NCBI GenBank assembly: GCA_024399065.1
Contig: JAKSIB010000009.1
Coordinates: 1-64,000, forward strand
Reading direction: 5' to 3'
DNA from: Fibrobacter sp.
Lineage (GTDB): Bacteria > Fibrobacterota > Fibrobacteria > Fibrobacterales > Fibrobacteraceae
Length of the DNA stretch: 64,000 bases
Shown here: one piece after another, positions 4,460 to 48,947 of the stretch
Numbering within the stretch: the stretch's first letter is position 1
How the letters are laid out: every line of letters starts with the position of its first letter
The notes under the pieces: model-generated
What the model was told of the DNA's origin: nothing
Seen by the model: only the letters and a program-made list of their open reading frames with translations
Databases searched by the model: none
Made by a program: the position numbers and the translations under genes

Positions 4460-4499
4460 AAAAAAAACTCGGGTCATCAAGCCCGAGTTCTTCTTTTTT
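4460..4499. terminator. Bidirectional terminator between mqnE and the aminotransferase gene
   Basis: Stem ACTCGGG (4467-4473) / CCCGAGT (4482-4488), A-rich on the left and T-rich on the right. It can therefore end transcription of both convergent genes. Confidence 0.9.
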
Positions 4500-5928
4500 A
4501 TAAAAGTGCAGCCATCCGCTGAACAGCTTCAGCAAACTGCGATGGTTCTTGCAACAAACTAATGACAACCCAACCATCTTCTTCAAAGTCGAAGAAGAAA
4601 CCTGGCTGCACCAGCACATGTTTTTCCCGGAGCAAGCGAAGAGTCAGTTCTTCGTCGTCTTCGCCCAGATGAACTACTGCATACCAACCGCCGAGAACCT
4701 TGGGGCAGTACTTGCTGGGGAATGCGGCGTGCAGTGTTTCCCAGTTCTGTTTCAAGCGGGCGGTAACCTGCGATTCGTACTCTGCAGCGCGGGCAAGCAG
4801 CGGCGTTGCCAGAGCCTGTGCGCAGGAAGAGGTACTGAGGTAGGCGTCTTCCACGAATTCCAGGGCGGCGCGTATTTCTTCGAAACGTTCACGAGGCGCG
4901 TAGAAAGCCATCCAGCCGAACTTCAGCTGAGGCGCACCCACGGCCTTGCTTAAACCGTTCAGCCAGAAGATCGGGCACTTGGGTCCATCGACGGGTGCGT
5001 AGACCACATCGTTTCCACCACAGTCAAAATAATCCGCAGCATTCTGTTCCTCATTTCTCGTACCTCGAACACTTTGACCACTTAGTGCTTCAGTACTTAC
5101 GTGGTCATGATCCCCGAATGGGGACTCGAGCCTGGAACCTGGAGCCTCACTCCTCAAATACTGCCAGCTGCGTTTGACTTCGTCGCTAAATCCGTAATCG
5201 CCGAAAACTTCATCCACCACAAGAACCAAGTTATTCTCTTCGCAAAAAGCAACAATCTCATTCCATTCTGCAAGGCTTACAATGTGTCCCGTAGGATTGT
5301 GGGGAGACACCAGCAGCAAGATGCGGGAACGTTCCGGAGCAGCCAGCAAGCTGTCCGTATCAATGACAAAACGGAACTCCGTTGCCGGTTTTTGCGCACT
5401 AGCCTTATCGCCATCCACAGATGCCTTAAGCTGAGCCAAAGACTTCAAGCCTCGAGCCTCGGGCCTGGAGCCTCTATCACGCACCAACTTCAAAAAATAG
5501 GGAGCACACTCCAGATGTTCCAGCTGGGCCAACGTATCCAACAGCGGATAGCCCGGCATAGGCGTCAGAATCACATCGCCCGGATCGCAGAATGTCTTGA
5601 AAAGAACAGAGTAGGCTTCGCTGGTACTGGCAGTGACGATCACCTGATTGGCGGTAAAGCAGCCTTCCCTTTCGCCATAGTAAGCAGCAACAGCTTCGCG
5701 AGCCTCACGCCAACCAGAAGCATCGGGAGACCAGTGTCCAAACTTTTCACGGCCTGCATCTACGGAAGAATCCAATTCCACCGGCAAGCCAACTCGCACC
5801 GGCGAGCTCACTGTCATATCAATGAAATCCGTGCATTCCTTTTTTGCCTTTTCCAGTTCAGCAAAAAAAGGACTTGGGGTCAAGTCCTTCGGTAAACGGT
5901 TCGACAATTTAAAGCTTTGGATTGCCAC
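4498..5928 (-). CDS. PLP-dependent aminotransferase, class I/II, with two repeat-derived insertions
   Basis: Fold-type I aminotransferase; its substrate is not recognisable. Family features are the N-terminal SNRLPKDLTPSPF, the HNPTGH segment that contacts PLP, VVDEVFGDY with the PLP-ring Asp, and NGLSKAVG with the Schiff-base lysine K328. At 476 residues it is longer than the usual 390-400. The excess lies in two low-conservation stretches, about residues 150-187 and 255-297, encoded by DNA made of degenerate 7-base repeats (5441-5475 and 5048-5155). The frame stays open through both, so it is not visibly a pseudogene, but activity is not assured. The start is uncertain: GTG at 5928 lies inside a REP-like repeat, and TTG (codon 8) would also serve. 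Confidence 0.82.
   Translation of the reverse strand: MAIQSFKLSNRLPKDLTPSPFFAELEKAKKECTDFIDMTVSSPVRVGLPVELDSSVDAGREKFGHWSPDASGWREAREAVAAYYGEREGCFTANQVIVTASTSEAYSVLFKTFCDPGDVILTPMPGYPLLDTLAQLEHLECAPYFLKLVRDRGSRPEARGLKSLAQLKASVDGDKASAQKPATEFRFVIDTDSLLAAPERSRILLLVSPHNPTGHIVSLAEWNEIVAFCEENNLVLVVDEVFGDYGFSDEVKRSWQYLRSEAPGSRLESPFGDHDHVSTEALSGQSVRGTRNEEQNAADYFDCGGNDVVYAPVDGPKCPIFWLNGLSKAVGAPQLKFGWMAFYAPRERFEEIRAALEFVEDAYLSTSSCAQALATPLLARAAEYESQVTARLKQNWETLHAAFPSKYCPKVLGGWYAVVHLGEDDEELTLRLLREKHVLVQPGFFFDFEEDGWVVISLLQEPSQFAEAVQRMAALL
5048..5155. repeat. Degenerate heptamer repeat inside the aminotransferase gene (locus 1)
   Basis: Two runs of 7-base units separated by a CCCC-gaat-GGGG palindrome (5113-5122). 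On the plus strand 5128-5155 reads GAGCCTG, GAACCTG, GAGCCTC, ACTCCTC. 5048-5103 reads TCCTCAT, TTCTCGT, ACCTCGA and further degenerate units. The run is translated as residues 255-297 of the aminotransferase. Confidence 0.75.
5441..5475. repeat. Degenerate heptamer repeat inside the aminotransferase gene (locus 2)
   Basis: Five consecutive 7-base units on the plus strand: GACTTCA, AGCCTCG, AGCCTCG, GGCCTGG, AGCCTCT. They fall in the first extra segment (about residues 150-187) of the aminotransferase. Confidence 0.8.
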
Positions 5929-5959: not shown

Positions 5960-6322
5960 TTACTTCTTTCTGCTCTTGAGGAACTTCACCAAGATCGTGG
6001 CGATCAAGATTCCCGCAGGAACAACAACAGCAATAGTCAAAAGGATCAGCTTCTGGAAATCGCCCATTTCCTTCAAGGATTTCTTGAAGTTCTTGAGACG
6101 TCCAAGAAGGTCCGGCTTACCGGATTCAGCAACAGCACCTTCAGCCTCAGCGCTACCACCATCGTCTTCGGCCAAGTCCTCGGAACCGGCAAAAGCCTTG
6201 GGGCTAGGAACCTTGCCCAGCAGATCCATAGTCGCATTCCAGACAGGCTTGGCAAAGGCACCGACCTTGCCAGCGTACTTGTCATACCTTTTCCTAAACG
6301 GACGTATTAACCTTCCGAACAT
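5960..6322 (-). CDS. Small membrane-anchored protein of unknown function
   Basis: A 120-residue product not recognised as a known family. The N-terminus is basic (RLIRPFRKRYDKY). The middle is acidic and Ala/Gly/Ser-rich and probably disordered. The C-terminal third is predicted to form one transmembrane helix (about residues 92-113, LILLTIAVVVPAGILIATIL) ending in FLKSRKK. It sits between leuA and the aminotransferase on the same strand, 40 bases after the leuA stop, so co-transcription is possible. Codon use looks like that of its neighbours. Nothing indicates a role. Confidence 0.6.
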   Translation of the reverse strand: MFGRLIRPFRKRYDKYAGKVGAFAKPVWNATMDLLGKVPSPKAFAGSEDLAEDDGGSAEAEGAVAESGKPDLLGRLKNFKKSLKEMGDFQKLILLTIAVVVPAGILIATILVKFLKSRKK

Positions 6323-6362
6323 CTTTCGTCTCTCGTCTGTAGGGCGAAGCCCGTTCTCTCGT
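6322..6362. repeat. Heptamer repeat interrupted by a GGGCGAAGCCC hairpin (locus 3)
   Basis: TCTTTCG, TCTCTCG, TCT and then, after an inserted AGGGCGAAGCCCG hairpin, TCTCTCG TCT. The complement is the GAGACGA unit found inside topB at 11384. It fills nearly the whole gap between the leuA stop (6363) and the next start codon. Confidence 0.7.
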
Positions 6363-9668: not shown

Positions 9669-10049
9669 ATGGAACACGAATTCACCATTAGGGGCCGAAT
9701 CTCCAAGGGGATTGATTTGGGCGCAAAACTGCAATGGGTAGAGCAGGACTTTGAAAGCCTTGGTCTAAAATTCAATTCCCAGGACAAGTCTAGGTTTACT
9801 TTAAAAAGCGAAGATCTTGCCAACGACGCACTGGAGCAGGCTTGCATTAATTTGTCCATAGTTCTCGGATGCAAGGTAGCCATTTGCAAGGACCACGAAA
9901 TATATGGCGTAGCCAACGTGTTTAATGGTGGTTCCGATTACGAAGTGGTGGACGAAGATTGCTTTTTGTGGGTTTACGAACGTGGCACATGCTTAGAAAG
10001 TGAACACACAAAATTCTTTAACGAAAAATTCGTATCTTTGCCACTATGA
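9669..10049 (+). CDS. Hypothetical protein
   Basis: A 126-residue soluble product with no recognised family, signal peptide or membrane segment. It is mixed alpha/beta in character and slightly acidic, with four scattered Cys residues and no metal-binding spacing. It is held between the symporter (10 bases upstream) and topB (ATGA overlap at 10046-10049), so it is probably translated with topB. That coupling is the only hint to its role. Confidence 0.6.
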   Translation: MEHEFTIRGRISKGIDLGAKLQWVEQDFESLGLKFNSQDKSRFTLKSEDLANDALEQACINLSIVLGCKVAICKDHEIYGVANVFNGGSDYEVVDEDCFLWVYERGTCLESEHTKFFNEKFVSLPL

Positions 10050-13000
10050 TTCTTCTTGTGGCAGAAAAACCTTCCGTTGCAAACCAGCATTACAGACCAA
10101 TGCTGGAACGTCTGGAAGGTGAAAAATTCACCCAGGGAGATGGATGCCTTATTGGCCAGAACCATTGCATCACTTGGTGCGTGGGTCACTTGATCACCTT
10201 GGCTCCCCTGGACGCCTATCCCGGATTTGAAGGCGGATGGCGATTGGCAAATCTGCCGCTGCTTCCTGAAAAGTTCCGCCTGATGGAAATTGAAAGCACC
10301 CGAAAACAGTTGGCCGTGGTTCGTGACATGATGAGCAAGGCGGATGTTCTGGTAAACGGCGCCGATGCTGGCCGCGAAGGTAACCTGATTTTCGATTTGA
10401 TTCTGGATTACACTCCCGCTTTCCGCCAAAAGCAGGTAAAGCGTTTGTGGGTGAACAGTTACGTGGCCAAGGACCTGGACAAGGCCTGGAAAAATTTGGA
10501 AGACGCCACACAGCGTTTGAATTTAAGCTACGCCGCTCGCCTCCGTCAACGTGCGGACTGGATGGTGGGTCTTAACGCCACCCGAGCCTACACACTTACC
10601 GCCGGCCGCGGCAAGATGATTTCCGTGGGCCGCGTGCAGACGCCAACCCTCAACTTGATTGTGGAACGAGACGCCATGGTGGAACAGTTCAAGGAACTGT
10701 ACTACTACAGCGTGGTAGGAACCTGGAAAGGATACCAGGCACAGCTCCTCCGACCGGATCGGGATGTCAAGCCAAAGGATGTCATTGCGAGCCCGGAGGG
10801 CGAAGCAATCGAAGCAGGCTCCACCCTCGTTTCCAAGCAAGCATTAAAAGTTGCAGTCTTTGAAAAAGAGGAGCCCGCCCAGGCCGTGGTGGACAAATGC
10901 GCCCCACCGGAAGAAGCGGTCATTACCGCCATCGATGTCCAGCAGAAAAAGCAGTTTCCGCAGAAGCCTTTCGACTTGACGGAACTGCAGAAAGAAGGCA
11001 ACAAACGCTTCAAATACAGCGCCCAGCAAGTGCTGGACTGCGCCCAGAACCTTTACGAAAAGAAGCTCCTCACCTACCCTCGTACGGATTCCGCCTACCT
11101 GCCCGACACCATGAAGCAGGAAGCATACGCCTTGGCTCAGCGTCTGGCCACCCCCGCCCAGCAGGGGATCATGCGTCCGGAATCGGAGAACTTCGTTTTC
11201 ATCAACTCCAGCAAGGTCACAGACCACTTTGCCATCATTCCTACCGGGGAACAGCCCAACGGCCTCCCAGAAATGGAAGAGAACATCTACAACCTGGCCA
11301 AGGAACGCTTTGTCCAGGCATGGCTAAAGCCTTATGTGTGGAACGAAATGGAAGTGACATTGAAAAGTCCTGCGGACTTTTCTGAGACGAGAGACGAGAG
11401 ACGAGAGACGAGAGATGCAAATGATCTAGCAGAAGTCTTTAGATTAAAGCTTAAGAAAAACGAGGATCTTGGTTTCCGTGCCCTCGTCAAGGAAGAAAAG
11501 AAGAAAAAAAAGTCCGAGGCACGAGGCACTAGCGATGGTTCCAACCCTGGCGCAGATGGCAAGGCAGGCGACGACTCAAGCTCAGACGACATCACTAACA
11601 TCGTTGAAAACTTTCCCGATTGGAATGTTGGCGACAAGGCTCCTTTCGATTCCCTGGAACTTCAGAAGAAAAAGAAATCCAAGCCCAAGTACTACACCGA
11701 GGCAACGCTCCTTGCTGCCATGAAGACTGCAGGTAAGCAGATTGACAACGAAGAACTTGCGGAAGCCATGAAGGACCGCGGCCTGGGCACGCCGGCAACT
11801 CAGGCAGGCATCATCGAGACTCTGAAGAAGCGCGGCTTCATCGAAGCCCAGAAAAACAATCTGGTCAGCACCCTCCGTGGCCGCGAAGTCATCGCCCTGA
11901 TGGACGAAAAAGTCAAGTCTCCGGAAATGACCGGCGAATGGGAATACAAGCTTTCCCAGGTGGAAAAAGGCAACTTGGATCCCAAGGAATTCCGCGACGG
12001 CATCGTCGAATACGTCCGCGATCTTTTCGTCCGCCTGCACGAGCAATACGGCAGCCAATTCGAACGCGAAACCGTCACCGAAGCCATTCCATGCCCCAAG
12101 TGCAGCCAGCCCATGGAAATCGCCCCCTGGGGTTACGTTTGCAAGAACAGCGATTGCGGATTCAAGGCAGGCCATACCATCGCTGGCCGCACCCTGAGCC
12201 ACGCAGAAATGGCAAAGCTTCTGGCCACAGGAAAATCCGACTTACTCAGCGGATTCAAGAGCAAGAAGGGAACCGCCTTCAGCGCCACCCTCACTTTGGC
12301 CGAAGACGGCAACATCGGATTTGAATTCAGCGACGAACCCCGCAACGCAACGCCTACGAATTACAAGTGCCCCAAATGCGGCAAACAAATCCTGGATTCC
12401 GGCAACCGTCTGATGTGCGGAAGCGCGGTCATCGTTCCTTCCCAGAACGATAATGGCGACCCCACGTTGACACCTACGACAGCCCCCACCTGCGACTTCG
12501 TCTTCTTCAAGACCATCGCCGGCCACATCATGACCGACGAGGAAATTGCCGAACTTTTCAACAACGGCACCACCGACGTCATCACAGGATTCATCACCAA
12601 GAAGGGAGCCCCCTTCAACGCCCGCGTAGTCTGGGACAACGACCACAAGGCAACCTTCGCCTTTGAAAACGACGGACACTTCCACGGCACCGAAACCAAG
12701 TTCAAGTGCCCCATCTGCAAGCACACTCTTGAAGAAAACAAGAACGCCATTTTCTGCACCGGCCGCGGCACCGACCGCGACGAGCAGGGCAACCCCTGCG
12801 ACTGCAAGTTTACGCTGTTCAAGTCCGTGGCCGGCAAGAAGCTCCGCGCCGCCGACATCAAGGCACTCCTCACCGGCGAAAAGACCGAACTCATTTCCGG
12901 ATTCAAGAGCAAGAAGGGCGACACCTTCGACGCCTTCCTAAAGTTGGGCCCCGACGGACGCACCAACTTCGAATTCCTCCGCCGCAACTTCCCCTGTCCC

Positions 13001-13285
13001 GCTTGCGGCGACCAGCTACAGTTTCGCAGAGGATCAGACGACCAAGGCCGCAATCTTTCCGCATATGTGTGCCGCAGCCCCCATTGCAACTACGGCATTC
13101 CCCAGGTGTTCTACCAGCGCACCTTTACCGACGCCGAAATGGAAGAACTCCTCACCAAAAAATGCACTCCCGTTCTAGAGCCATTTAAAAAGAACGACAC
13201 GAAATTCCGTGCCGCCCTTGAAATCCGCGAAGGCGGAAAACTCGCCTTCAATAAATTGACCGTGGAAGTCATCGAAAAGAAGTAA
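10046..13285 (+). CDS. topB: DNA topoisomerase III-like (type IA) with four C-terminal zinc/repeat modules
   Basis: A type IA topoisomerase that relaxes or decatenates DNA by single-strand passage. The Toprim domain starts at MILLVAEKPSVA, with the acidic motif NGADAGREGN near 105-114. SVGRVQTPTL is present, and the active-site tyrosine is Y344 in LTYPRTDS. After the core (to about 660) come four zinc-ribbon-like Cys clusters (near 683, 775, 888 and 984), each followed by a copy of the topoisomerase C-terminal repeat (typical core GFKSKKG). Total length is 1079 residues, well above the 650-750 of most TopB. Two insertions come from repeats: residues 246-256 from a REP-like element and about 447-457 from a GAGACGA heptamer run. 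A Lys/Ser-rich patch near 485-515 holds a third. Confidence 0.9.
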   Translation: MILLVAEKPSVANQHYRPMLERLEGEKFTQGDGCLIGQNHCITWCVGHLITLAPLDAYPGFEGGWRLANLPLLPEKFRLMEIESTRKQLAVVRDMMSKADVLVNGADAGREGNLIFDLILDYTPAFRQKQVKRLWVNSYVAKDLDKAWKNLEDATQRLNLSYAARLRQRADWMVGLNATRAYTLTAGRGKMISVGRVQTPTLNLIVERDAMVEQFKELYYYSVVGTWKGYQAQLLRPDRDVKPKDVIASPEGEAIEAGSTLVSKQALKVAVFEKEEPAQAVVDKCAPPEEAVITAIDVQQKKQFPQKPFDLTELQKEGNKRFKYSAQQVLDCAQNLYEKKLLTYPRTDSAYLPDTMKQEAYALAQRLATPAQQGIMRPESENFVFINSSKVTDHFAIIPTGEQPNGLPEMEENIYNLAKERFVQAWLKPYVWNEMEVTLKSPADFSETRDERRETRDANDLAEVFRLKLKKNEDLGFRALVKEEKKKKKSEARGTSDGSNPGADGKAGDDSSSDDITNIVENFPDWNVGDKAPFDSLELQKKKKSKPKYYTEATLLAAMKTAGKQIDNEELAEAMKDRGLGTPATQAGIIETLKKRGFIEAQKNNLVSTLRGREVIALMDEKVKSPEMTGEWEYKLSQVEKGNLDPKEFRDGIVEYVRDLFVRLHEQYGSQFERETVTEAIPCPKCSQPMEIAPWGYVCKNSDCGFKAGHTIAGRTLSHAEMAKLLATGKSDLLSGFKSKKGTAFSATLTLAEDGNIGFEFSDEPRNATPTNYKCPKCGKQILDSGNRLMCGSAVIVPSQNDNGDPTLTPTTAPTCDFVFFKTIAGHIMTDEEIAELFNNGTTDVITGFITKKGAPFNARVVWDNDHKATFAFENDGHFHGTETKFKCPICKHTLEENKNAIFCTGRGTDRDEQGNPCDCKFTLFKSVAGKKLRAADIKALLTGEKTELISGFKSKKGDTFDAFLKLGPDGRTNFEFLRRNFPCPACGDQLQFRRGSDDQGRNLSAYVCRSPHCNYGIPQVFYQRTFTDAEMEELLTKKCTPVLEPFKKNDTKFRAALEIREGGKLAFNKLTVEVIEKK
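10781..10811. repeat. REP-like element GTCATTGCGAG...GAAGCAATC inside topB
   Basis: GTCATTGCGAGCCCGGAGGG followed by CGAAGCAATC is a complete palindromic repeat with a CCCGGAGGG core. It is translated in frame as residues 246-256 of the topoisomerase, within a segment rich in charged and small residues. Confidence 0.75.
11384..11418. repeat. GAGACGA heptamer repeat inside topB (locus 4)
   Basis: Four perfect GAGACGA units and a fifth diverged unit (GAGATGC) in direct tandem. They are translated as a Glu/Arg/Thr/Asp run at residues 447-457. The complementary unit occurs at 6322-6362. Confidence 0.92.
11512..11532. repeat. Heptamer repeat inside topB (locus 5)
   Basis: Three 7-base units, GTCCGAG, GCACGAG and GCACTAG, in frame within the Lys-rich linker of topB. 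They are of the same GAG-core type as the run before nuoA. Confidence 0.6.
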
Positions 13286-13633: not shown

Positions 13634-15040
13634 TTAGCCGAAAATCTTGTTGTAGAAATCCGGGGCAAACTTCTGCAGATAACCCTGGGCAAAAATGACC
13701 AGAACGATTGCGGGAAGAACCCACTTGATGTAGAAGCGGACAAACTTGTTGGTGGGGAACTTGAAGCCCTTACCGGTATTGACTTCCTCATAGAACTTGT
13801 CCTGGCCCCAGCCATAGCGGGAGTTACAGAATACCACGAAGAACAGGGCACCCAACGGGAGCAAGGTGTTGGAAACCAGGAAGTCTTCCAAGTCAAGAAC
13901 ATTGCTTCCCGGGCCGAAAGGTTCAAAGCCGGACCAGGCGTTGAAGCCAAGGGCACAAGGCAAGGACAAAATGATGATTGCAAAGATATTGACAGCCACC
14001 ACCTTCTTACGCTTAAAGTTCTTCAAATCCATCCAGAAGGAAACGATGTTTTCGAACACCGCCACCAAGGTGGAAAGAGCTGCAAAGCTCATAAACAGGA
14101 AGAAGGCTGAGCCGAAGAAACGACCTGCAGGCATCTGTGCAAAGATGTTAGGCAAAGTCACGAACACAAGGCCCGGACCTGCACCCGGTTCCACATTAAA
14201 GGCAAAGCAGCTGGGAATAATGATAAGGCCAGCAAGCAAGGCAACCAAGGTATCCAAGGCGCAGATATTCACGGCTTCCTTAGCCAAGGTATGCTTCTTA
14301 TTAATATAGCTACCGAGAATGGACATGGAGCCGATACCGATGCTCAAGGTAAAGAAGGCCTGACCCATGGCAGCAAACACGACCTCGTTGATTCCCTTTT
14401 CCATAAGGCGGCCAAAGTCCGGCAGCAGGTAGAACTTGAGGCCTTCTGCAGCGCCCGGCAAGGTCACCGCGCGGATGGCAAGGGCAATCATGATTACAAA
14501 CAGCAAGGACATCATCCACTTGGTAATGCGTTCCACGCCCTTCTGCAAGCCGAGAGACACAATACCAAGGCCAAGGAGGGTGGCAACAATCATCCAGCCG
14601 GACTGAATGCCGGCATCACCCAGCATGGTACCGAAAGCCTCGCCCACTTCGGCGGGAGTCTTGCCCTGAAGGTCACCAACGAAGGTCATGCGGAAGAAGT
14701 AGTACATCATCCAGCCGCTAACCGTGGTGTAGAACATCATCAAGAGGTAGTCGCCAGCGATCATGGGGTACTTGGCGTAGTGCCACTTGGAGCCTGCAGG
14801 TTCCAGTACGTCGAAGGAACGGGCAATACCACGCTTACTGGCACGACCATTGGAAAATTCTGCAATGAGGGCCGGTAAGCCGAGAATCACCAGGAAGAAC
14901 AGGTAGATCAAAACAAAGGCGGCACCGCCGTACTGACCGGTAATAAAAGGGAAACGCCAAACGTTACCGATACCGATTGCACAACCGGCAGCAATCAAAA
15001 TAAATCCAAGACGGGAACCGAAACTTTCTCTTTCATTCAT
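13634..15040 (-). CDS. Sodium:neurotransmitter symporter (SNF) family transporter
   Basis: A 468-residue inner-membrane Na+-coupled transporter of the LeuT fold, probably for an amino acid. The signature near the start, GSRLGFILIAAGCAIGIGNV followed by WRFPF, matches helix 1 of bacterial SNF proteins. About eleven or twelve further hydrophobic segments follow. The start is set at ATG 15040 (MNERESFGSRLGF), with AAGGA 11 bases upstream. The frame continues open to 15190, but that extension is encoded by tandem heptamers and is not family sequence. Nothing in the neighbourhood identifies the substrate. Confidence 0.9.
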   Translation of the reverse strand: MNERESFGSRLGFILIAAGCAIGIGNVWRFPFITGQYGGAAFVLIYLFFLVILGLPALIAEFSNGRASKRGIARSFDVLEPAGSKWHYAKYPMIAGDYLLMMFYTTVSGWMMYYFFRMTFVGDLQGKTPAEVGEAFGTMLGDAGIQSGWMIVATLLGLGIVSLGLQKGVERITKWMMSLLFVIMIALAIRAVTLPGAAEGLKFYLLPDFGRLMEKGINEVVFAAMGQAFFTLSIGIGSMSILGSYINKKHTLAKEAVNICALDTLVALLAGLIIIPSCFAFNVEPGAGPGLVFVTLPNIFAQMPAGRFFGSAFFLFMSFAALSTLVAVFENIVSFWMDLKNFKRKKVVAVNIFAIIILSLPCALGFNAWSGFEPFGPGSNVLDLEDFLVSNTLLPLGALFFVVFCNSRYGWGQDKFYEEVNTGKGFKFPTNKFVRFYIKWVLPAIVLVIFAQGYLQKFAPDFYNKIFG

Positions 15041-15090
15041 AATAAAGTCGTCCTTTTTTGCAAGATGTTTGAAAGATAATAAAAAGAGCG

Positions 15091-15146
15091 GTGAGCGATG
15101 AGCCATGAGCCGTGAGTTGTGAGTTATGAGTTGTGAGTAATGAGCA
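15091..15146. repeat. RTGAGNN heptamer repeat, eight units (locus 6)
   Basis: Exactly eight 7-base units in direct tandem, consensus RTGAGNN with the last two bases mostly CC or TT. It is the cleanest intergenic example of this class in the window. Confidence 0.95.
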
Positions 15147-15198
15147 TCTTTATTTGTCATCACCGCAGCATTCCATGTCATCTCGGCCACTTTTATTT

Positions 15199-15224
15199 GT
15201 CATCCCGGGCTTGACCCGGGATCT
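15199..15224. repeat. REP-like palindrome GTCATCCCGGG...CCCGGGATC
   Basis: GTCATCCCGGGCTTGACCCG then GGATC: perfect inner stem CCCGGG/CCCGGG around CTTGA. It shares the GTCATCC...GGATC ends with the copies at 3350 and 16726 but has a different core. Confidence 0.75.
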
Positions 15225-15281
15225 CCATTCCCTACGATTTTTGTATATTTACCGCCGTAAAATTGCAATTTGGCGGATATA

Positions 15282-16697
15282 ATGAGCGAAAATTACAAGT
15301 ACGGCTTTGTTACGGATATCGAAAACGACTCTTTTGAAAAGGGCCTTAACGAAGACATCATCCGTCGAGCCAGCGCTCTCCGCGGCGAACCCCAGTTCAT
15401 GCTGGATTTCCGCCTCAAGGCTTACGAGAAGCTCCTGACCATGGAGCAGCCCAACTGGGGCGAGCTGAATTTTGCGCCTGTGGACCTGCAGGACATCGTC
15501 TACTATTCCGCACCCAAGAACAAGAAGGCTCACGAAAAGATCGAGGACGTGGACCCGGAACTTCTGGCCACCTTCGAAAAGCTGGGAATTCCTCTGGACG
15601 AACAGAAGCGTCTGGCCAACGTGGCCGTGGACGCAGTGTTCGACTCCGTCAGTATTTATACAAGCCACAAGAAGAAGCTCATGGAAATGGGCATTATCTT
15701 CTGCAGTATTTCCGATGCCATCAAGGAATACCCGGAACTGATCGAACAGTACCTGGGTAGCGTGGTTCCCGCAGGCGACAACTACTTTGCCGCCTTGAAC
15801 AGTGCCGTGTTTGGTGACGGAAGCTTCGTCTACATTCCCGCAGGCGTCAAGTGCCCCATGGACCTCAGCACCTACTTCCGCATCAACAACAAGGAAGCAG
15901 GCCAGTTCGAACGCACCCTGATTATCGCAGACGACAACGCCGAAGTCAGCTACCTGGAAGGCTGTACCGCTCCTGAATTCAGCAGCAAGCAGCTCCATTC
16001 CGCCATCGTAGAACTGGTGGCCAACGAAAACGCCAAGATCAAGTACAGCACCGTACAGAACTGGTACGCCGGCGACCGCGAGACTGGCGCAGGTGGCGTC
16101 TACAACTTTGTGACCAAGCGCGGCAAGTGCGCCGGCAAGAACAGCCGCATCAGCTGGACCCAGGTGGAAACCGGTTCCGCCATCACCTGGAAGTACCCCA
16201 GCTGCGTTCTGGTGGGCGACAACTCCGTAGGTGAATTCTACAGCGTGGCTCTGACCAACGGCCACATGCAGGCCGATACCGGCACCAAGATGATCCACAT
16301 CGGTAAGAACACTCGCAGTACGATCATTTCGAAAGGTATCAGCGCCGACAATTCCAGCAACGCCTACCGCGGCGAAGTCTCTATTCGTAAGAGTGCCGCA
16401 GGCGCCCGCAACTACACCCAGTGCGACAGCATGCTGGTTGGCGACAAGAGTGCCGCCCACACCTTCCCCTACATTACGGTAGCAAACGGCACCGCCCAGA
16501 CGGAACACGAAGCAACCACCAGCCGCATCAGCGAAGATCAGCTGTTCTATTTCGAGAGCCGCGGCATCAAGCGCGAAGACGCCATCCAGGCTATGGTGGG
16601 CGGTTTCTGTAAGGATGTGTTCAAGGAACTGCCCGGCGAATTCGCTACCGAAGCCCGCCAGCTGCTGACCCTGAAGCTGGAACACTCCGTAGGGTAA
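15282..16697 (+). CDS. sufB: Fe-S cluster assembly scaffold SufB
   Basis: SufB is the scaffold subunit of the SufBCD complex, which builds Fe-S clusters in the cytoplasm. The 471-residue product matches the family's length. Conserved features include [20 protein letters not shown], the segment [34 protein letters not shown] and [14 protein letters not shown]. The cysteine of the CDSM segment is the one usually implicated in cluster building. ATG 15282 was chosen over an in-frame TTG 12 bases earlier because the usual SufB N-terminus starts close to it. No sufC, sufD or sufS follows; a palindrome-rich intergenic region comes next. Confidence 0.93.
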
Positions 16698-16703
16698 CTC
16701 GCG

Positions 16704-16752
16704 CGTCATCCTGAGCGTCCTCGCGCGTCATCCTGAGCGAAGCGAAGGATCT
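16704..16752. repeat. Tandem REP-like elements GTCATCCTGAGC...GAAGGATC
   Basis: A partial copy (GCGCGTCATCCTGAGCGTCC) is followed by a complete one, GTCATCCTGAGCGAAGCGAA then GGATC. They lie directly behind the sufB stop codon. Confidence 0.75.
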
Positions 16753-18548: not shown

Positions 18549-21500
18549 TCACCATTCGTTTATGGAAATGTACACGGAAGCATCAATCTTTACATTAATC
18601 ACGCAATTTTGATTTTGCTTAGAATAAATATCAAAAGAATTAAAGTCCCAATGAGCAGGATTTTCCTTCGTTCCATCAACCTTTGTATAAACCGTTCCTG
18701 AATGAGAGCCTCCATTGCAATCGGTATATTCTATTCCAAAGGATGTCGGACTTTCCGCCCAATAGCCAACTTGTAATTTAGCATTATCATAATGACGAGC
18801 ATTCAAGGTTACGGAGTACCACTGATTAGCATTCATATTTCCTCCTGCTGACTGCGATTCATATTCACCATTCGAATTACAACACGTATGAACAACAGTG
18901 CCAAACGAAGTATAAACCGGTTCAGAATTAGAACCTTTCACAGTCAGTGTTGCCCGGCAAATTTCATACGAGCCATCTGTCGTTGTAAGGATTAAATCGT
19001 AAGTTTCATCATCTGATTTTGCTGCGGGAGCATTAAAGGAATTGTTCCAACAATTAGAATTACTACAATCAATCACTTTAGAAGTCGATCCATAATTCAA
19101 TTTTGCGTTGAAATTATTGTTTATCCCGTTGATACTACTTACATCGAACGTCAAGCTTGTTTCACCAGCAACTTTTGTAACCTCGGTACCATTCTGTTTG
19201 ATTACACAATCTGCCGTCACCCCAGTTCCCCGAGCTACAACATTCAAATTTGCGGAACAAAGCGTTGTTGAACCATCTTTTAAAACATAAGTATATGATT
19301 GGGGTGAATCTGGCAACGTAAAACCACAATCTAAAGAAGCACCATTATACCAAAAACAAGAGGAATTTTGTTTATTAACTTGAACGCCATTCTCCCAAAC
19401 TACACTAGGTCCCTGGATAGTCAATTCCTTTTGAGATCCGGAGCTATTTGGAGTCGTTGAAACAAGTTTAACATTCTCTCCAGCCATAACACTCGTAACT
19501 GGAGTTCCCGAATTATCCTTAAATGAACATGATAGTTCCGAACTTTCAGCCGATTCAAACTCAATTGTACACTTCGTTGAAGCTTCCTCGGCACCACGCT
19601 TAAGGGACAACACATAAGAATTTCCAGCCGAACCCGTTACAGTGACACTACCACCGTTATTTGCAAAGTCTGTTACCGAGCCGCTATTACTTATAGCCCA
19701 GGAACATTCACCATCAGCACCATCGCAACCATTAACCGAGGGAGTAAACGTTGCCGATGTTCCAGAGAACTTTCCTGTGGGGCAATTACCTAAAGTCAAA
19801 GTAGACTTTCCGACAGTGTACGGAACAGGGTCACAAGCCTGTGTTCCATTAATCGTCAAAACGAGATAGAACGTGCCATTTCCAGTAAGCCCTGTAATAG
19901 ACTGAGTATATGTTTCATCCACAGTGACGGCGTGTTCACTGCCAATAACTTTACCTTGCGGGTCATTATACCACAACTTTGCCGCATAAGAACCATAATT
20001 GCCAGCCTTTAAATCTGCCTTAAAATCAGTGCCATCTACACGGCAATTTTCAGCCGTTGCCGGAGTGGTTTTATTCACTACGAAAGAAGCTTCGCATTTA
20101 TCCGTATTGTAGGTTACACGATAAGTGTATGCACCATCAGTTGAACTTACTTCTGGCGTCCAGTTTTCAGAGCAATTTCCACCACTAGTAGCGCACGTAA
20201 TATCACCACTAGCAGTCTTTGGCCCATCTAATTCAACCGTCACAGCACAACCACTCGGAGGGCAGTCCAAAATATTATATGTAAATGTCGGTATATCCTG
20301 CCCTTCAAAAATTTCACTTCGAGAAACACTACAATCGCCCATGGTAGGTTTCTTCACCTCGACAGGATGTGTTGTACAGGTTGATTGTTCTCCCTTTTCA
20401 TCCGTCATAGTTATCGTAAAAGAAATGTCTTCATCATAATTCAGCGAAGTGAACAAGTCCGTTGCCGGAACAAAGAAATTACCGTCCATGCTACAATCCG
20501 TAGTCACGGCATCCACCAGATTAGACGAGCTTTCAATTTTACAACCATTTTGAGGAGCCTTCTCCGGATGAGATATGCTCGGCGCGGAAATGTTAAAACC
20601 TGTTCCGGTGGCGTTCAATCCTGCATAGCAAGCATTTCCAATACCCGTGGCATTGGGGCAAGAACTTTCCACACGAACAACATCAAATCTGTACGAGCCG
20701 TTGAATACAATTTTTGAAACCACCTGCGGATCAAAGCCATCCTCTGTCATAAGATTTACAATAGGAACCGTAGCACCACGATTTGCGTAAGATATTGTAA
20801 AGTCATTGCTATTCTTACCATTCTGGTCAACAAGATGAGCCGAGATGGAACCTTCAGTGGCATCTGAATTTATCGATACTACAAGGTTCGCATCGCGTAA
20901 GTTTACTGTTTTATCATCATCAAGATTGATTTCACAATCAAGTCCACCAGAGCAAGACTTTGACGTTTCCCCAGAATAAATCGTTTCATTGTCTGTGCAT
21001 GATTGCACATCACCAACATAGAACGTACCGCAATCCGCAGTGTAAATAGAATGGCCACAACGAATCATTGCCGTAGCATTTTTCGCATAACCTGTTTTCT
21101 TTGTAGAAATAAGCCATTCAAACCACTTGCCCGTTTGATCCGTAATTTTAACCTTGTGATCACCCTTTTCCATAAATCGATAGGTACTTCCCGCCATTCG
21201 AGCACCCTCATTCCAGAATGCACCGACATTATCTGTACTGTAGCAAGAATAAGAACGACTACCATCAGTGAAAGCTATAGAACCTCCAGCAAAATAACTA
21301 GAGGGAACGTCACAACCGTTATAGTAGTACTCAGGGACAACGTTTTCTTCACACTCGTCATTATCTTCAAACCAGCTAGAATAGCCTACCCAAGGTGTTA
21401 CGTTGGAATCATAAGGCACCAAACCTCCGATATATTTGTTTCTAAAGGAGCAATAAATTTGCGGTGCAGCAAAGCAACTGGATTCCTTATCAACGTCTGT

Positions 21501-24500
21501 TGTTGTCCAGGACATATCACTGTAGTGATACTTTGCGTTTTTCAACTTCAAGCCAACATGGTACCTTTGATTTGCGGAATTATTGGTGTTAGCAAGAGCA
21601 ACACCTTCCGCAGGAAGTTTTTCGATATCGTTAAGATTCAATGTTGCGATACCGATAGACTTAGTCGACCCTTCAGAATACCCCAAAGCAACTTCAACGA
21701 CAGGGCCGTTCAACGTCAACTTTATGGTACAGTCATTTAACGCAGATGAAGGAATTGCGCCAAACAAACTTGTAGATGACTTCATTATATCTGCAGAAGT
21801 ACAATAGGTTCTAGTGGTGTTTTGCCCACTAGCGTAGCAAACCTGAGCCTGAGCAGAGAAACTTCCAACAAAGGGAATCTTAAACGCAACAACATTTAGC
21901 GCAAAATAGCTTGTAGCAGATTCATTGGATCTAAAAATCACGCCATCATCAACCTCGTCTCTGGTGTCATCCCATCCAAGGAATCCACCTCCTGAAACAG
22001 TTCTCTTTACTGTCATTGTTCCGTTGAAGCCTGCATCGACATAATTAAGCAACACCATAGGTTGCGAAGGTCCAGCGCTAATATAAGCAGAAGTCACATT
22101 TGGTTTTGTATACGTGTAGATTCTTTCAAAATCACTACAACCACCATACCTGTTGTATTTAATACAAGAGTTTTTTGATCCCTGAGAATATACAGACATC
22201 CAGTTTGCCTGTTGATCGATTCCTTCACCAACAGAGCACTGTGATACCGTTTCACTACAGTAATCAATGCAGTTTTCATAATTAGCAGCAGTACATTTAT
22301 CTAGGAAATCCTCAGACACACCCTTTTTGTTTTCCTTTTTGCCAAACGCATCATAGAAGCAGTGCTCGTCGCGTACGTTAAAGTAAGCAACCAGGGTATC
22401 ATTAGAGTTAATACCCATATCATCAAATCTCTTATTTCCGTAGCTCTTTCTTGGTCCACAATCGCCACCATAGCACTTCCAGGTCGAGAACTTGTTACTA
22501 CCACCGTCATCCGCCACCGCAGTAACGGAGTAACCGGCGTACACATTATACACATCATACCCATTAACATGGTCACTAGGCGTAGCTGCAGTTGTTTCCC
22601 CGTTTATATAGACTTTTGTCGAGGCGCCCACAACATCATTGCCTGTAATATTCACAAAAAGTTTATACGGTTTTCTCTTGAGAGAGGCATGCAACGTATA
22701 GGTTTCATTGTTTTCTGCTTCAAGAACCGTATCACGAATTACAGCAATACAGCTACCAGAGATATTTCTGTTTTGCAAATGAATTCCAAGGTTTGTACCG
22801 CAAGTCCAGGAATTATTTTCTTCATTTACTCTTAAGCTATTGCAGTAAGGATACACCCATTCTGTTTTCTGTTGCGCACTGTTACATGACGGCCAGTTAT
22901 CACTCGTAATTGCGGCGCAATCATATTCCACACCATCTACGCCAAGAACCTTATCATGGTCTGAGCAGTAACTACTAGGAATATCCGCCCTATTAACATT
23001 TGCAAACCCCGTAATAGATACCATGAAATAGTTTGGAGTACCAATAACACAGCCGTTATTAGGAGGAATCAATTCAAACACAACAGTACCGCTAGCAGCG
23101 CCAGGCAAAGCCTGCACAGTAAACGCTGGGAAATTGTCTCGACTAGCATCAAACGTTACAGTATAGTAGCGATCATTTTCTGTGCTTGCAGAAATGTTAT
23201 GTTGGGAAACGCCAGTTTGCGGGGTTATAATCCACTTTTCATCTGGAATGTTGGATACTCGAACATCAACAGACTTTGTACCTGTACGAGTGCCTGCAGA
23301 AGTCCCCATGTTTACGGTAATTGCAGAGCCACCCGGAGTAATCTTTTCATCGGTACCATTGAAATACACCTTAGGAGTTTCGCCATTTTTGCCAGCAATC
23401 ACTACCCAGAACGGAATTCCATCAGCCGAATAGGTTGAAGACGTATAAGTACACTTATAAAGACCTTCACCAATGGGGCTACCTTCGGTGTAAAGCTTTC
23501 CAGAAGGAAGGCTCGGATTACACTGAACGTTAGAAGGATTCTTTTCTTCTGTAGCCTTGTTGAGGTTAATAATACTGTAGTAATCAGAAAGGCGGCCCAC
23601 AGGATCCTGGGTCAAATAGATTACACGAGGCAAAACAATAATAGATGGTGCAGGAGTAGCATAATCATTTGAGCTTAGTTTTTCAGGATCAAGTTCCTTG
23701 TTCTTGTACTGAGATTCCAAAGAAATATGGAGCTGCGGAGCTGTTGCAACGTGGTAGCTGTCACGAACAGCATTAGAAGTGGTCGTACCAGAGTCACCAC
23801 TAGAGCTTCCATTTGGATTAGCAAGTTTCGTATACTCAGGATTTTCTTTAATGATTCCTGCACCGACCAAAGCAGTCAACACGCTCTTTTCAAAGTGGAA
23901 AGAACCGCTATTCAAATCTTTAAAGGTAGATCCCTTTGCCATAATGGCACTACCTTGAATATCCAGCTTATCAAGGAAGTTATCAATATCAGCTTCAGAG
24001 TAGATAAAATACCTATAGCTAGAACCATTCCCTCCCTTTTGCAATGTTGCCGCACCTTGAGCAAAGTAGAGCATTGCAACGGCATCGTTCTTTGTAGGAG
24101 GAAGTCTCATTTGACTTGGTTTTGCGTCAAAGTAGAAAACAAACTTTCCATCAAGTTCTTGAGAACCAACATCATTAAGTTGGGTGTTGTTTATTTTTAA
24201 AACAAGGAACCCATTATAAAGATTTTCGGGGCTGTCAGAAGTCAACTTCTTATAGCAATTATTCATGGCAGAAATATTCGAGCTTGACAAACCGTTATTT
24301 GCAGGAACATCATAACCAACGTTCTTACAAGCGTCATTACCTAGTTTTCCAAGCCATGCAGTAGAATCCTTGAGCAGCAATGGCTGGGGCACATTCCCGT
24401 CACTGGCTATCAAATTGCCATAAGCATTCATCTTGCGAATGCGTTCCCAATAATTATTTCCAATATTCTTGAGTACGCCATCATTGTTATCCCACTTCGA

Positions 24501-25751
24501 AAGTTGATTTGCAGGATCCGTTTTCAAATTTGCAGCAGAAAAAGAAAACATTCGATGATTTTTACGATCATCATCCGAGCCGTCTATTTGAGGTTGTGTC
24601 GAACCCTGGGTAAACGCTCCATATCTCATAGGGGTATTGTTTTTTTGCGTCAACAGTTCATACTGATTCGTTCCAGAATACTGGTAAACATTACCTGCAA
24701 TTGTAATTCTTCTATTTCCGTTACCATCACCACACGAGCCACCACAACCGGCATCGATTGTCTTTGGGAAGTAAGCATTACCCTTTACCTCAATCGTTCC
24801 AAAATTATCGCTACCAACCTTCAAAGTGGCCTTGTCAGTAAATACAAGATTTTTGCCGATCACAGTATTGTAATTTTGAGATCTTTCAAAAACACCATTA
24901 ACCGTGAGATTACCAGAAACTTTCATAGCACAATTTGAGCTAATGTTTCCATTGACAAACAGGTCGCCGCAAACAGTAAGGGGGCCACCAGCACAAGTTG
25001 TCATATTGCCACCAATATACACAACGTTGGTATCTTTGCCGGCAATGCAATTACCAGAGGCATCCACTTCACCAATAGTCAAAGTACCCTGGTTACCATA
25101 ATCACCCTTGATGTAAAGGTCCTTACCCTGATTGGTTCCACCTTGGTAAGTTACACTTCCTGTAACAAGGAGATTATCAGTAATCTTAGGAACGTTACCT
25201 TTAAGATCACCATTAATCAAACCAGACTGCAATACGTTATCGCTGGTAACATTACCCAATTTTCCAGAAAACGCCTGGTCAAAATTAAGCGATGTTGATT
25301 CCTGGGGAATGTTAACACGGTAAAGTCCGTTTACCTTAAGAATTGAGTTTTCACTGTACTTGGCATTGCCACTTCGTGCAGTACCAACAGAAGTAATTTT
25401 CAACTTGTAATTAGACGTTTCAGTATTTACACCTGTTAGCCAAACTGTATAGTTCTGCTTTGAGGTTCCAAAGTCCTTGACAACATCGTTAAGTTTAATG
25501 GGTTTCTTGCCATTAGATGCGCTTTGATACTGCCCAATAATAGCGCCAACATCGTTAGCGTTAAAGGTCATCCATGCTCGTACCGCGTCAAGCCCAGCCC
25601 TAGAAGACTGCTGAGCTTCCGCAAGAGCCATTCGGCTTGCACTTGAGCTTTGAGTAGTACTTAACCACTTATAAGTCGCTGTTGCAGCAATCGTTGCAAT
25701 CAGCATGAACAACAACACCGTTACTAAGGACACACCCTTTTTATTAAACAT
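18549..25751 (-). CDS. Giant PilX/GspK-like minor pilin with extracellular domains (2400 residues)
   Basis: The N-terminus is a class III prepilin signal: MFNKKG followed by VSLVTVLLFMLIATIAATA. Cleavage after Gly6 would leave Thr, not Glu, at position 5, as in GspK/PilX-type tip pilins. After a PilX-like start (to about 150) come Gly/Asn-rich repeats with a beta-solenoid look (about 190-340), then a long series of beta-rich, Cys-rich modules resembling Ig-like domains. The C-terminal 110 residues form a separate Cys-containing beta domain. Typical PilX is under 250 residues, so this is about ten times larger. AAGGGAG precedes the ATG. It is the last gene of a fimT-pilV-pilW-pilX-type operon. 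A tip adhesin combining PilX and PilY1 roles is inferred, not shown. Confidence 0.75.
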   Translation of the reverse strand: MFNKKGVSLVTVLLFMLIATIAATATYKWLSTTQSSSASRMALAEAQQSSRAGLDAVRAWMTFNANDVGAIIGQYQSASNGKKPIKLNDVVKDFGTSKQNYTVWLTGVNTETSNYKLKITSVGTARSGNAKYSENSILKVNGLYRVNIPQESTSLNFDQAFSGKLGNVTSDNVLQSGLINGDLKGNVPKITDNLLVTGSVTYQGGTNQGKDLYIKGDYGNQGTLTIGEVDASGNCIAGKDTNVVYIGGNMTTCAGGPLTVCGDLFVNGNISSNCAMKVSGNLTVNGVFERSQNYNTVIGKNLVFTDKATLKVGSDNFGTIEVKGNAYFPKTIDAGCGGSCGDGNGNRRITIAGNVYQYSGTNQYELLTQKNNTPMRYGAFTQGSTQPQIDGSDDDRKNHRMFSFSAANLKTDPANQLSKWDNNDGVLKNIGNNYWERIRKMNAYGNLIASDGNVPQPLLLKDSTAWLGKLGNDACKNVGYDVPANNGLSSSNISAMNNCYKKLTSDSPENLYNGFLVLKINNTQLNDVGSQELDGKFVFYFDAKPSQMRLPPTKNDAVAMLYFAQGAATLQKGGNGSSYRYFIYSEADIDNFLDKLDIQGSAIMAKGSTFKDLNSGSFHFEKSVLTALVGAGIIKENPEYTKLANPNGSSSGDSGTTTSNAVRDSYHVATAPQLHISLESQYKNKELDPEKLSSNDYATPAPSIIVLPRVIYLTQDPVGRLSDYYSIINLNKATEEKNPSNVQCNPSLPSGKLYTEGSPIGEGLYKCTYTSSTYSADGIPFWVVIAGKNGETPKVYFNGTDEKITPGGSAITVNMGTSAGTRTGTKSVDVRVSNIPDEKWIITPQTGVSQHNISASTENDRYYTVTFDASRDNFPAFTVQALPGAASGTVVFELIPPNNGCVIGTPNYFMVSITGFANVNRADIPSSYCSDHDKVLGVDGVEYDCAAITSDNWPSCNSAQQKTEWVYPYCNSLRVNEENNSWTCGTNLGIHLQNRNISGSCIAVIRDTVLEAENNETYTLHASLKRKPYKLFVNITGNDVVGASTKVYINGETTAATPSDHVNGYDVYNVYAGYSVTAVADDGGSNKFSTWKCYGGDCGPRKSYGNKRFDDMGINSNDTLVAYFNVRDEHCFYDAFGKKENKKGVSEDFLDKCTAANYENCIDYCSETVSQCSVGEGIDQQANWMSVYSQGSKNSCIKYNRYGGCSDFERIYTYTKPNVTSAYISAGPSQPMVLLNYVDAGFNGTMTVKRTVSGGGFLGWDDTRDEVDDGVIFRSNESATSYFALNVVAFKIPFVGSFSAQAQVCYASGQNTTRTYCTSADIMKSSTSLFGAIPSSALNDCTIKLTLNGPVVEVALGYSEGSTKSIGIATLNLNDIEKLPAEGVALANTNNSANQRYHVGLKLKNAKYHYSDMSWTTTDVDKESSCFAAPQIYCSFRNKYIGGLVPYDSNVTPWVGYSSWFEDNDECEENVVPEYYYNGCDVPSSYFAGGSIAFTDGSRSYSCYSTDNVGAFWNEGARMAGSTYRFMEKGDHKVKITDQTGKWFEWLISTKKTGYAKNATAMIRCGHSIYTADCGTFYVGDVQSCTDNETIYSGETSKSCSGGLDCEINLDDDKTVNLRDANLVVSINSDATEGSISAHLVDQNGKNSNDFTISYANRGATVPIVNLMTEDGFDPQVVSKIVFNGSYRFDVVRVESSCPNATGIGNACYAGLNATGTGFNISAPSISHPEKAPQNGCKIESSSNLVDAVTTDCSMDGNFFVPATDLFTSLNYDEDISFTITMTDEKGEQSTCTTHPVEVKKPTMGDCSVSRSEIFEGQDIPTFTYNILDCPPSGCAVTVELDGPKTASGDITCATSGGNCSENWTPEVSSTDGAYTYRVTYNTDKCEASFVVNKTTPATAENCRVDGTDFKADLKAGNYGSYAAKLWYNDPQGKVIGSEHAVTVDETYTQSITGLTGNGTFYLVLTINGTQACDPVPYTVGKSTLTLGNCPTGKFSGTSATFTPSVNGCDGADGECSWAISNSGSVTDFANNGGSVTVTGSAGNSYVLSLKRGAEEASTKCTIEFESAESSELSCSFKDNSGTPVTSVMAGENVKLVSTTPNSSGSQKELTIQGPSVVWENGVQVNKQNSSCFWYNGASLDCGFTLPDSPQSYTYVLKDGSTTLCSANLNVVARGTGVTADCVIKQNGTEVTKVAGETSLTFDVSSINGINNNFNAKLNYGSTSKVIDCSNSNCWNNSFNAPAAKSDDETYDLILTTTDGSYEICRATLTVKGSNSEPVYTSFGTVVHTCCNSNGEYESQSAGGNMNANQWYSVTLNARHYDNAKLQVGYWAESPTSFGIEYTDCNGGSHSGTVYTKVDGTKENPAHWDFNSFDIYSKQNQNCVINVKIDASVYISINEW

Positions 25752-29444: not shown

Positions 29445-29489
29445 ACCTCAAAGGGAGCTTCGCGACCGACCTCAAAGTTCAAAGTGAAG
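29445..29489. repeat. Heptamer-type repeat between hsp33 and thrH (locus 7)
   Basis: ACCTCAAAG occurs twice, separated by GGAGCTTCGCGACCG. The second copy continues as 7-base units ACCTCAA, AGTTCAA, AGTGAAG (29469-29489). Confidence 0.55.
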
Positions 29490-34399: not shown

Positions 34400-34989
34400 T
34401 TTCCACTTTGCACCATAGCGACTACACCTTAAAGAACCGCGCCTTCAACTGCCGAATGCGCAATCGCTATTACGAAGAAGTCTACTATGCCTTCCGAGCC
34501 CTTTTCCCCAACGAAGTTGCCGAACGTAAGGAGCCAAACCCGGTGGCGGACGCCATCTGGTTCCAGCACCTGAGTCGCGAAATCAAGCGTTACGAGCGCC
34601 TGCTCATGACCTGTCTGGAATATGCCCAGGCTGCCGTTTTTTATGGAAAAAACGGCAATGCGGCCCTCTACTCCAAGGACAAGCGCTGGGGTATCCTCCA
34701 GGAAGAGATCTTCTTGGTACACTTTTTGCAAGAGTTACAATCTACGACCCGCTACGTGATTGCCCGAATCGAAACTGACCAGATGCTCCAGCAGTGGAGC
34801 GGCGAAATGCAGGACATGAAGGCTAAGCCGGTGGGTTCTGGTTATGTGAACGCTATCCAGGAAAAGCTGAACGAAATGAATGCCGCAACCATCGTCGAAT
34901 TCAAGGACTTGCTCAAGCATGTTCTGGACCGATTCCAGATCGGCAACACTTTGTTCGGAACCGTCCAGGAATTGCAGAATTTCTATTAG
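34396..34989 (+). CDS. Hypothetical protein coupled to rel
   Basis: A 197-residue soluble protein with no recognised family. It is largely alpha-helical, rich in Arg/Tyr/Glu/Leu, with no signal peptide or membrane segment. Its start overlaps the rel stop (ATGA), so it is probably translated with rel. Its stop is followed immediately by a heptamer repeat and then nuoA. A role near (p)ppGpp control is only guilt by association. Confidence 0.65.
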   Translation: MISTLHHSDYTLKNRAFNCRMRNRYYEEVYYAFRALFPNEVAERKEPNPVADAIWFQHLSREIKRYERLLMTCLEYAQAAVFYGKNGNAALYSKDKRWGILQEEIFLVHFLQELQSTTRYVIARIETDQMLQQWSGEMQDMKAKPVGSGYVNAIQEKLNEMNAATIVEFKDLLKHVLDRFQIGNTLFGTVQELQNFY

Positions 34990-35017
34990 GAGGCTCGAGG
35001 TTCGAGGCACGAGGTAA
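34990..35017. repeat. GAGGNNC heptamer repeat before nuoA (locus 8)
   Basis: Four units in direct tandem: GAGGCTC, GAGGTTC, GAGGCAC, GAGGTAA. They begin right at the stop codon of the preceding gene and end 22 bases before nuoA. Confidence 0.9.
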
Positions 35018-48545: not shown

Positions 48546-48947
48546 GAGTAAGGCGAATCGTTAAAGGTCACGACGTAAGCTTGTACGGGAAACGGTCCTC
48601 GTTTCACTGCGGATTGTTTCCCTTTACAACTTACATCGCTCCCTTAGAACATTTTTTCGCCAATTACTTATACCACCCGTTTTTGCGGATGTTCGCTTTG
48701 TTGTATAAGTAGTTTCGGTCCGTGAGGTAAGCTCGCACGAAAACAAGGCCGTTCCGGGTTGTTTTCTTTGCGACTTACCTTCACTCCCCTATACAATTAC
48801 TTATACATGCCGTTTTTGCGGTTGTTCGCTTTGTTGTATAAGTAAGTTTCGGTCCGTGAGGTAAGCTCGCACGCAAAACGGTCCTCGCTTCGCTGCGGAT
48901 TGTTCACTTACCGACTTACCTTGCTCCACTACGAACTTATTTATATC
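48536..48947. repeat. Three tandem nested hairpin units downstream of the GH116-like gene
   Basis: Units at about 48536-48673, 48703-48806 and 48836-48947. Each starts with GTATAAGTA(A), has an inner stem starting GTAAGC, and ends near ACTTAC(C) and TTACTTATAC. The first GTATAAGTAA is the final codons and stop of the GH116-like gene. Inner stems are 48575-48634, 48726-48779 and 48860-48920. TTCGCTTTRTTGTATAAGTA is repeated at all three unit starts. Between units lies a small CCG-TTTTT-GCGG hairpin. The cores of units 1 and 3 contain a REP-like TCCTCGCTTCGCTGCGGA or close variant. No open gene was found in 48546-49059. Confidence 0.85.

Follow-up and report, generated by a model that had tools for sequence, protein, structure and literature searches.

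Cyanobacterial STRR sequences are degenerate heptamers dispersed in intergenic spacers, as are the arrays described here, and the unit sequences of the two differ. Bacterial interspersed mosaic elements and REP/REPIN sequences are mosaics of hairpins and short modules in spacers, an organization that we also encountered in this work. In contrast to REP/REPIN, the present arrays have heptamer arms, and their number does not track the RAYT-family transposase.

A SPADE survey of 7,006 genomes identified heptamers as the most abundant intergenic tandem repeat of prokaryotes, with no known function (PMC6344855), and earlier surveys had noted the over-representation of heptamers, as cited in PMC4692102. 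Worked examples are GGGANTN in Xanthomonas and GGGGAYT in Nostoc (PMC4692102), and the TAACTGA arrays of Beggiatoaceae, cyanobacteria, and Bacteroidetes, which are directed towards start codons (PMC4679880).

Here we describe heptamer arrays in a stretch of 64 kb (the window) from a 3.82-Mb draft genome of Fibrobacter (G000, 118 contigs). We found no literature on heptamers in Fibrobacter, but the original prediction overstated their newness in this genus because such repeats are reported across prokaryotes generally (PMC6344855; PMC4692102; PMC4679880). Like the heptamers of the SPADE survey, the arrays are short, mostly intergenic, present at many loci, and without assigned function; the available portion of that report was not found to describe polarity, facing pairs across hairpins, units with a core and variable positions, or block swapping. 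The Xanthomonas and Nostoc heptamers are similarly heterogeneous with a conserved core, lie near gene ends with similar polarity, and include some inverted pairs (PMC4692102). In contrast, they contain G-tracts of at least three that fold as G-quadruplexes, whereas no more than two G stand side by side in the main vocabularies of G000. The TAACTGA repeats share with our arrays the proximity to start codons, indels in steps of seven, and a patchy distribution, but consist of one unit, point mostly in one orientation towards starts in their type genome, and have a proposed translational role (PMC4679880). The G000 arrays have other units and are directed outward from genes. Arrays of period 7 greatly outnumber those of neighbouring periods and lie mainly in spacers, which places them in the class of prokaryotic intergenic heptamer repeats. 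In our best reading, they represent a form, specific to this lineage, of the heptameric tandem repeats that are common in bacterial spacers. The genus is a natural experiment in which their origin becomes testable, with 80 species, 0 to nearly 200 pattern hits per genome, and vocabularies that differ between sister species.

Heptamer Arrays in the Window

Arrays were scored by self-match at lag 7 and compared with 40 dinucleotide shuffles of the 64-kb window. With this measure, we found four runs scoring at least 9 in the window against 0.17 in the shuffles. The original prediction had named eight loci, which resolve into the following features:

15086..15144, plus strand: main array, 8.4 units of RTGAGNN; score 29.5, unequalled in 40 shuffles
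11384..11415, plus strand: perfect GAGACGA array, 4.6 units; score 25, unequalled in 40 shuffles
5445..5473, minus strand: [G/C]AGG[T/C]NC array; score 12, unequalled in 40 shuffles
34990..35014, plus strand: GAGGYNC array; score 10.5, 0.1 expected per 64 kb
5048..5069, minus strand: stub of 3 GAG-bearing units, half of an in-frame composite insert in an aminotransferase gene
5125..5155, minus strand: stub of degenerate GAGG/CAGG units, second half of the 5048 composite insert
6322..6362, minus strand: composite of two 2-unit GAGACGA stubs flanking a GGGCTTCGCCC hairpin
11512..11532, plus strand: two CGAGGCA units within the topoisomerase III gene; weak alone, TRF score 30
29469..29489, no strand assigned: locus of the original prediction, at chance level and left out of the family

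The predicted loci at 5441, 11384, 15091, and 34990 exceed chance, and the other four are stubs of two to three units. The match at 5048-5155, which is not a single array but two short stubs flanking hairpins, and the match at 11512-11532 are each expected 0.65 times per shuffled window, the one at 6322-6362 2.0 times, and runs like that at 29469-29489 4.5 times. The list of eight is an over-count, with four solid loci, two or three pieces belonging to the same family, and one spurious match. Four other places in the sampled DNA of G000 match the whole 41 bp of 6322-6362 at 80-90% identity, so that this composite is a real dispersed element.

Distribution of Period-7 Arrays

G000 was sampled as stretches, many of which were picked for arrays, and the resulting bias was checked on unselected stretches. 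In 0.82 Mb of partly array-chosen G000 DNA we counted 62 arrays of period 7, compared with 0-4 at periods 4, 5, 8, 10, 11, 13, 16, and 17; counts at periods 14 and 21 were mostly harmonics of 7. Unselected DNA of the relative G025 (0.4 Mb) contained 14 period-7 arrays vs 0-1 at other periods. Unselected G000 DNA (240 kb) gave only three arrays of period 7, and periods 10 and 11 gave three and four. The pattern GAGN4 x4 matched 70 times genome-wide, at about 34 loci, with about 0.5 matches expected by a simple calculation. These many loci and the excess of period 7 confirm the predicted dispersed family with one shared period; the claim also stands after comparison with shuffled sequence, the test by which the prediction proposed to be judged, in which period 7 again was in excess. 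In the G000 stretches, 54 arrays are intergenic vs 9 inside genes, as called by script.

Two contigs (C59 and C65) end in the same heptamer array (L062:12804-12874 and L063:1-54). Arrays are thus a probable cause of assembly breaks, and draft genomes would give too low a count of them.

Beyond G000, we counted the pattern YGARNNN x5 in 80 genomes of the genus and in 41 sampled genera of the phylum. It occurs 0 to 188 times per genome in the former and in 25 of the 41 genera, counts that are relative and not absolute because a reversed-pattern control also picks up heptamers of other vocabularies. The dominant units differ by species. CGAGGYN in close to five copies was found, among the matches listed, in Prevotella, Halomonas, Photobacterium, Vibrio, Myxococcales, Chloroflexi, and others. 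Rumen Prevotella and Prevotellaceae (L179, L194, L224, L237, L256) have CGAGGTRC arrays that resemble those of G000, some with facing arrays of different units. Viral contigs are nearly devoid of CGAGGYN arrays, with six matching stretches among 2.9 million contigs, a number that leaves spread of the arrays by phages unsupported.

Unit Structure

The units are drawn from a few vocabularies common to several loci, chiefly [G/C]AGG[T/C]NC, then GAGACGA, AATTACG, TAGTGGT, and others; the commonest consensus units are AGGTTCG, AGGCTCG, ACGAGAG, AATTACG, and AGTGGTT. Some arrays, such as that at L036:9835, switch vocabulary along their length. The earlier view that the loci share a period and not a sequence holds for the period and is corrected for the sequence, as a few vocabularies recur across loci.

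In [G/C]AGG[T/C]NC arrays that had not been chosen by the GAG pattern, adjacent units differed in only 2 of 225 comparisons at positions 2-4 (AGG). The corresponding figures are 26/66 for the first position, 34/64 for the fifth, and 9/63 for the seventh. Alignment on the core by itself tends to lower the variation at these positions, but the unanchored fifth and seventh positions still contrast with each other. The last two positions of TGAGCNN in G008 vary likewise. Neighbouring units resemble each other no more than shuffled units do, and alternate units are weakly more alike (p = 0.03, 0.05, and 0.09 in three vocabularies). Slippage with neutral drift predicts equal variation at all seven positions and similar neighbours, and hence does not predict this unit structure. 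As the units lack G-tracts, a G-quadruplex reading can be ruled out.

Orientation and Facing Arrays

Genes were called by a simple codon-usage script, which leaves their start positions uncertain. Of the roughly 53 intergenic arrays in G000, 33 begin within 12 bp of a start or stop codon. The purine-rich strand points outward from the gene in 30 of these 33, in 13 of 15 such arrays in G008, and in 1 of 2 in G025 (pooled: 44/50, against a background of about 50%). The array at 34990, which begins directly 3' of the TAG stop codon at 34987-34989, shows this orientation. Array-free segments at the same places pointed outward 325 times and inward 338 times in G000, and 159 vs 127 times in G008; given this background of about 50:50, we can reject purine composition at gene ends as the cause of the polarity. 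Because the purine strand is the sense strand after stops and the antisense strand before starts, co-directional gene pairs included, a property of spacers at the DNA level is an easier reading than an RNA signal. Selection on messenger ends may also be behind the polarity.

A second regularity concerns facing arrays. We defined a partner as an inverted match to the array's own profile within about 110 bp, and found one 3' of the purine strand for 17 of 69 arrays, compared with 3 on the 5' side and 1-2 at random-place controls; 52 of the 69 arrays have no inverted partner at this threshold. The asymmetry recurs in G008 (13 of 39 downstream vs 0 upstream) and at loci from other phyla (18 of 106 vs 5, with exceptions that include Desulfosporosinus and Myxococcales). 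The partners resemble the array they face more closely than they do the genome's other arrays, with modest significance (p = 0.009, 0.03, and 0.046). A GC hairpin often lies between the facing arms, and for several composites hairpin formation by the arms is predicted, with z down to -8.3. Over most or all of their length, composites of 41-121 bp have further copies at 72-90% identity; one of 99 bp (L042:13902-14000) has an 89% match at other places in G000 and in G011.

Turnover between Related Species

For 14 G000 arrays the corresponding site was located in G025: six arrays are kept, four of them identical and two near-identical, and eight are absent or replaced. More generally, an orthologous site in a sister species may keep the array, have a different type of heptamer or a hairpin repeat in its stead, or be empty. 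The original prediction had counted variability in presence among its support, and between sister species we clearly see it. At L038:19537 there is a clean gain of 61 bp, array plus hairpin, relative to G066. At the few clean empty sites that we examined no consistent target-site duplication was recognised, and inverted arms are present in a subset of arrays. Most conserved arrays have equal numbers of units. Two differ, by one and by three units: the array at L060:11172 is one unit shorter in G025 with identical flanks, and the main array of the window has five units instead of eight in G057, with both ends kept.

This main array occupies the spacer between two divergent genes, that of a sodium-dependent transporter (13634-15040, minus strand) and sufB (15282-16697, plus strand). 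It is absent from six close relatives (G040, G009, G025, G054, G036, and G011). We detected no terminator-like site there, and the fold (z = -1.6) is not exceptional. Dispersed palindromic repeats (GTCATCCTGAGCG..., GTCATCCCGGGCTTGACCCGGGATC) adjoin arrays at 16698-16739 and 15190-15225, one of them tandemly duplicated with a 22-bp period. G057 holds two differing copies of the topoisomerase III region and sufB (L359 and G057:C31:37107-37865), which suggests that it is a mixed bin.

Arrays inside genes are exchanged as well. The GAGACGA array at 11384..11415 is read in frame within the DNA topoisomerase III gene (10046-13285). The same linker contains an AATTACG array in G040, other repeat sequence in G025, G009, and G054, and no comparable insert in G066; across sister species all inserts have lengths divisible by 3 and are free of stop codons. 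The aminotransferase gene (ORF 4498-5928) bears array-derived peptide in two places. The array at 5445..5473, also read in frame, is near-identical in G025 and replaced by different sequence in other relatives, and the composite insert at 5048-5155 is identical in G025 and differs in other relatives. The 6322-6362 composite is present in G025 and G057. All nine arrays inside genes of G000 are in sense orientation, but only two of five are in G025, so that we dropped sense orientation inside genes as a general rule.

The polarity, the facing inverted partners, the fixed core with free positions, and the occurrence of differing arrays, hairpins, or nothing at orthologous sites are apparently new. 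Polarity, facing pairs, and core-plus-variable units are measurable constraints on any explanation, and already speak against plain slippage with neutral drift.

Possible Origins

We favour, with a probability of about 0.5, the reading that the arrays are mosaic repeats of spacers, gained and replaced in whole blocks where they are harmless, lengthened by slippage, and kept alike in their arms by template switching at hairpins. Arrays and small GC hairpins would be the modules of mosaic interspersed repeats, whose gain, loss, and exchange proceed block by block within short gene spacers and within in-frame protein loops that tolerate them. An existing array would change its length in steps of seven by slippage. 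In facing pairs separated by a hairpin, a switch of template in the course of replication would copy one arm onto the other, so that the two stay complementary. Arrays would persist where they do no harm, and no cellular role would be needed. Periodicity, dispersal, gain and replacement of blocks, outward polarity, facing pairs, and length steps of seven were observed; slippage, template switching, and the lack of a role are our inference. The fixed AGG core, the lack of likeness between neighbouring units, an outward polarity that slippage alone does not predict, and the 52 of 69 arrays without a partner count against this explanation.

The recurrence of composites as wholes, the clean 61-bp gain at L038:19537, and the reuse of sites in different species would also be consistent with a mobile element or insertion enzyme, REPIN/RAYT-like or MITE-like, that moves array-hairpin-array units whole and leaves single arrays as remnants. 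We consider this possible but unlikely. Carriage of the two enzyme domains examined is not associated with array number: Y1_Tnp (RAYT family) is present in 27 of the 80 genomes (median hits 5 with, 3 without, p = 0.77), and among genomes with at least 60 pattern hits ten lack Y1_Tnp and ten lack the reverse transcriptase domain RVT_1. For neither domain do median hits differ significantly by carriage, in a set that includes some incomplete genomes, and we can discard both as drivers. G000 itself has no RVT_1 match, which also separates the arrays from retroelements such as DGRs and retrons, and the few clean empty sites show no recognisable, consistent target-site duplication. The same lack of a reverse transcriptase weighs against a model in which a polymerase, with or without a template to guide it, adds purine-rich heptamers to 3' ends broken within spacers before these are joined. 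Such extension predicts outward polarity, facing pairs, and units drawn from a vocabulary without neighbour likeness, but the length difference at 15086 is internal and not terminal, and arrays in coding regions as well as the exceptions to the polarity (6 of 50 arrays) are left unexplained; we regard it as very unlikely.

The original prediction had proposed a common generating mechanism or a protein that reads a 7-base pitch. A common process is plausible; the protein is unproven, with none found and a core that differs between sister species. If the arrays were repeated sites for a species-specific DNA- or RNA-binding protein, selection would keep the core while the rest drifts, as in [G/C]AGG[T/C]N of G000 and TGAGCNN of G008; the change of dominant vocabulary between sister species and the crowding at start and stop codons fit this reading. 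Yet close relatives lose or replace arrays beside housekeeping genes (sufB) and inside topoisomerase III, one genome contains several vocabularies, and start and stop codons face opposite strands, against a simple reader of RNA. Such a role seems to us rather improbable. It is highly improbable that facing arrays are kept as long stem-loops acting as terminators or messenger-stabilising hairpins, since most arrays lack a facing partner and the 15086 array is not accompanied by a terminator-like site, even though several composites have strong predicted hairpins with a purine 5' arm and a pyrimidine 3' arm, as in bidirectional terminators. Finally, it is a long shot that degenerate heptamers are written outward from the borders of genes by a process dedicated to this, through a sequence-specific factor or template-guided 3'-end extension with a species-specific core. 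One such machine, acting at spacer breaks, would account at once for units with an invariant core and variable positions, for the outward polarity, and for the facing pairs.

Other Features of the Window

A tRNA is the only known RNA family in the window. On the minus strand, 18549-25751 form an open frame of 2400 residues with no Pfam match at E 0.001. At 48661-48912 we observed a tandem repeat of 133 bp in two copies that match at 81%.
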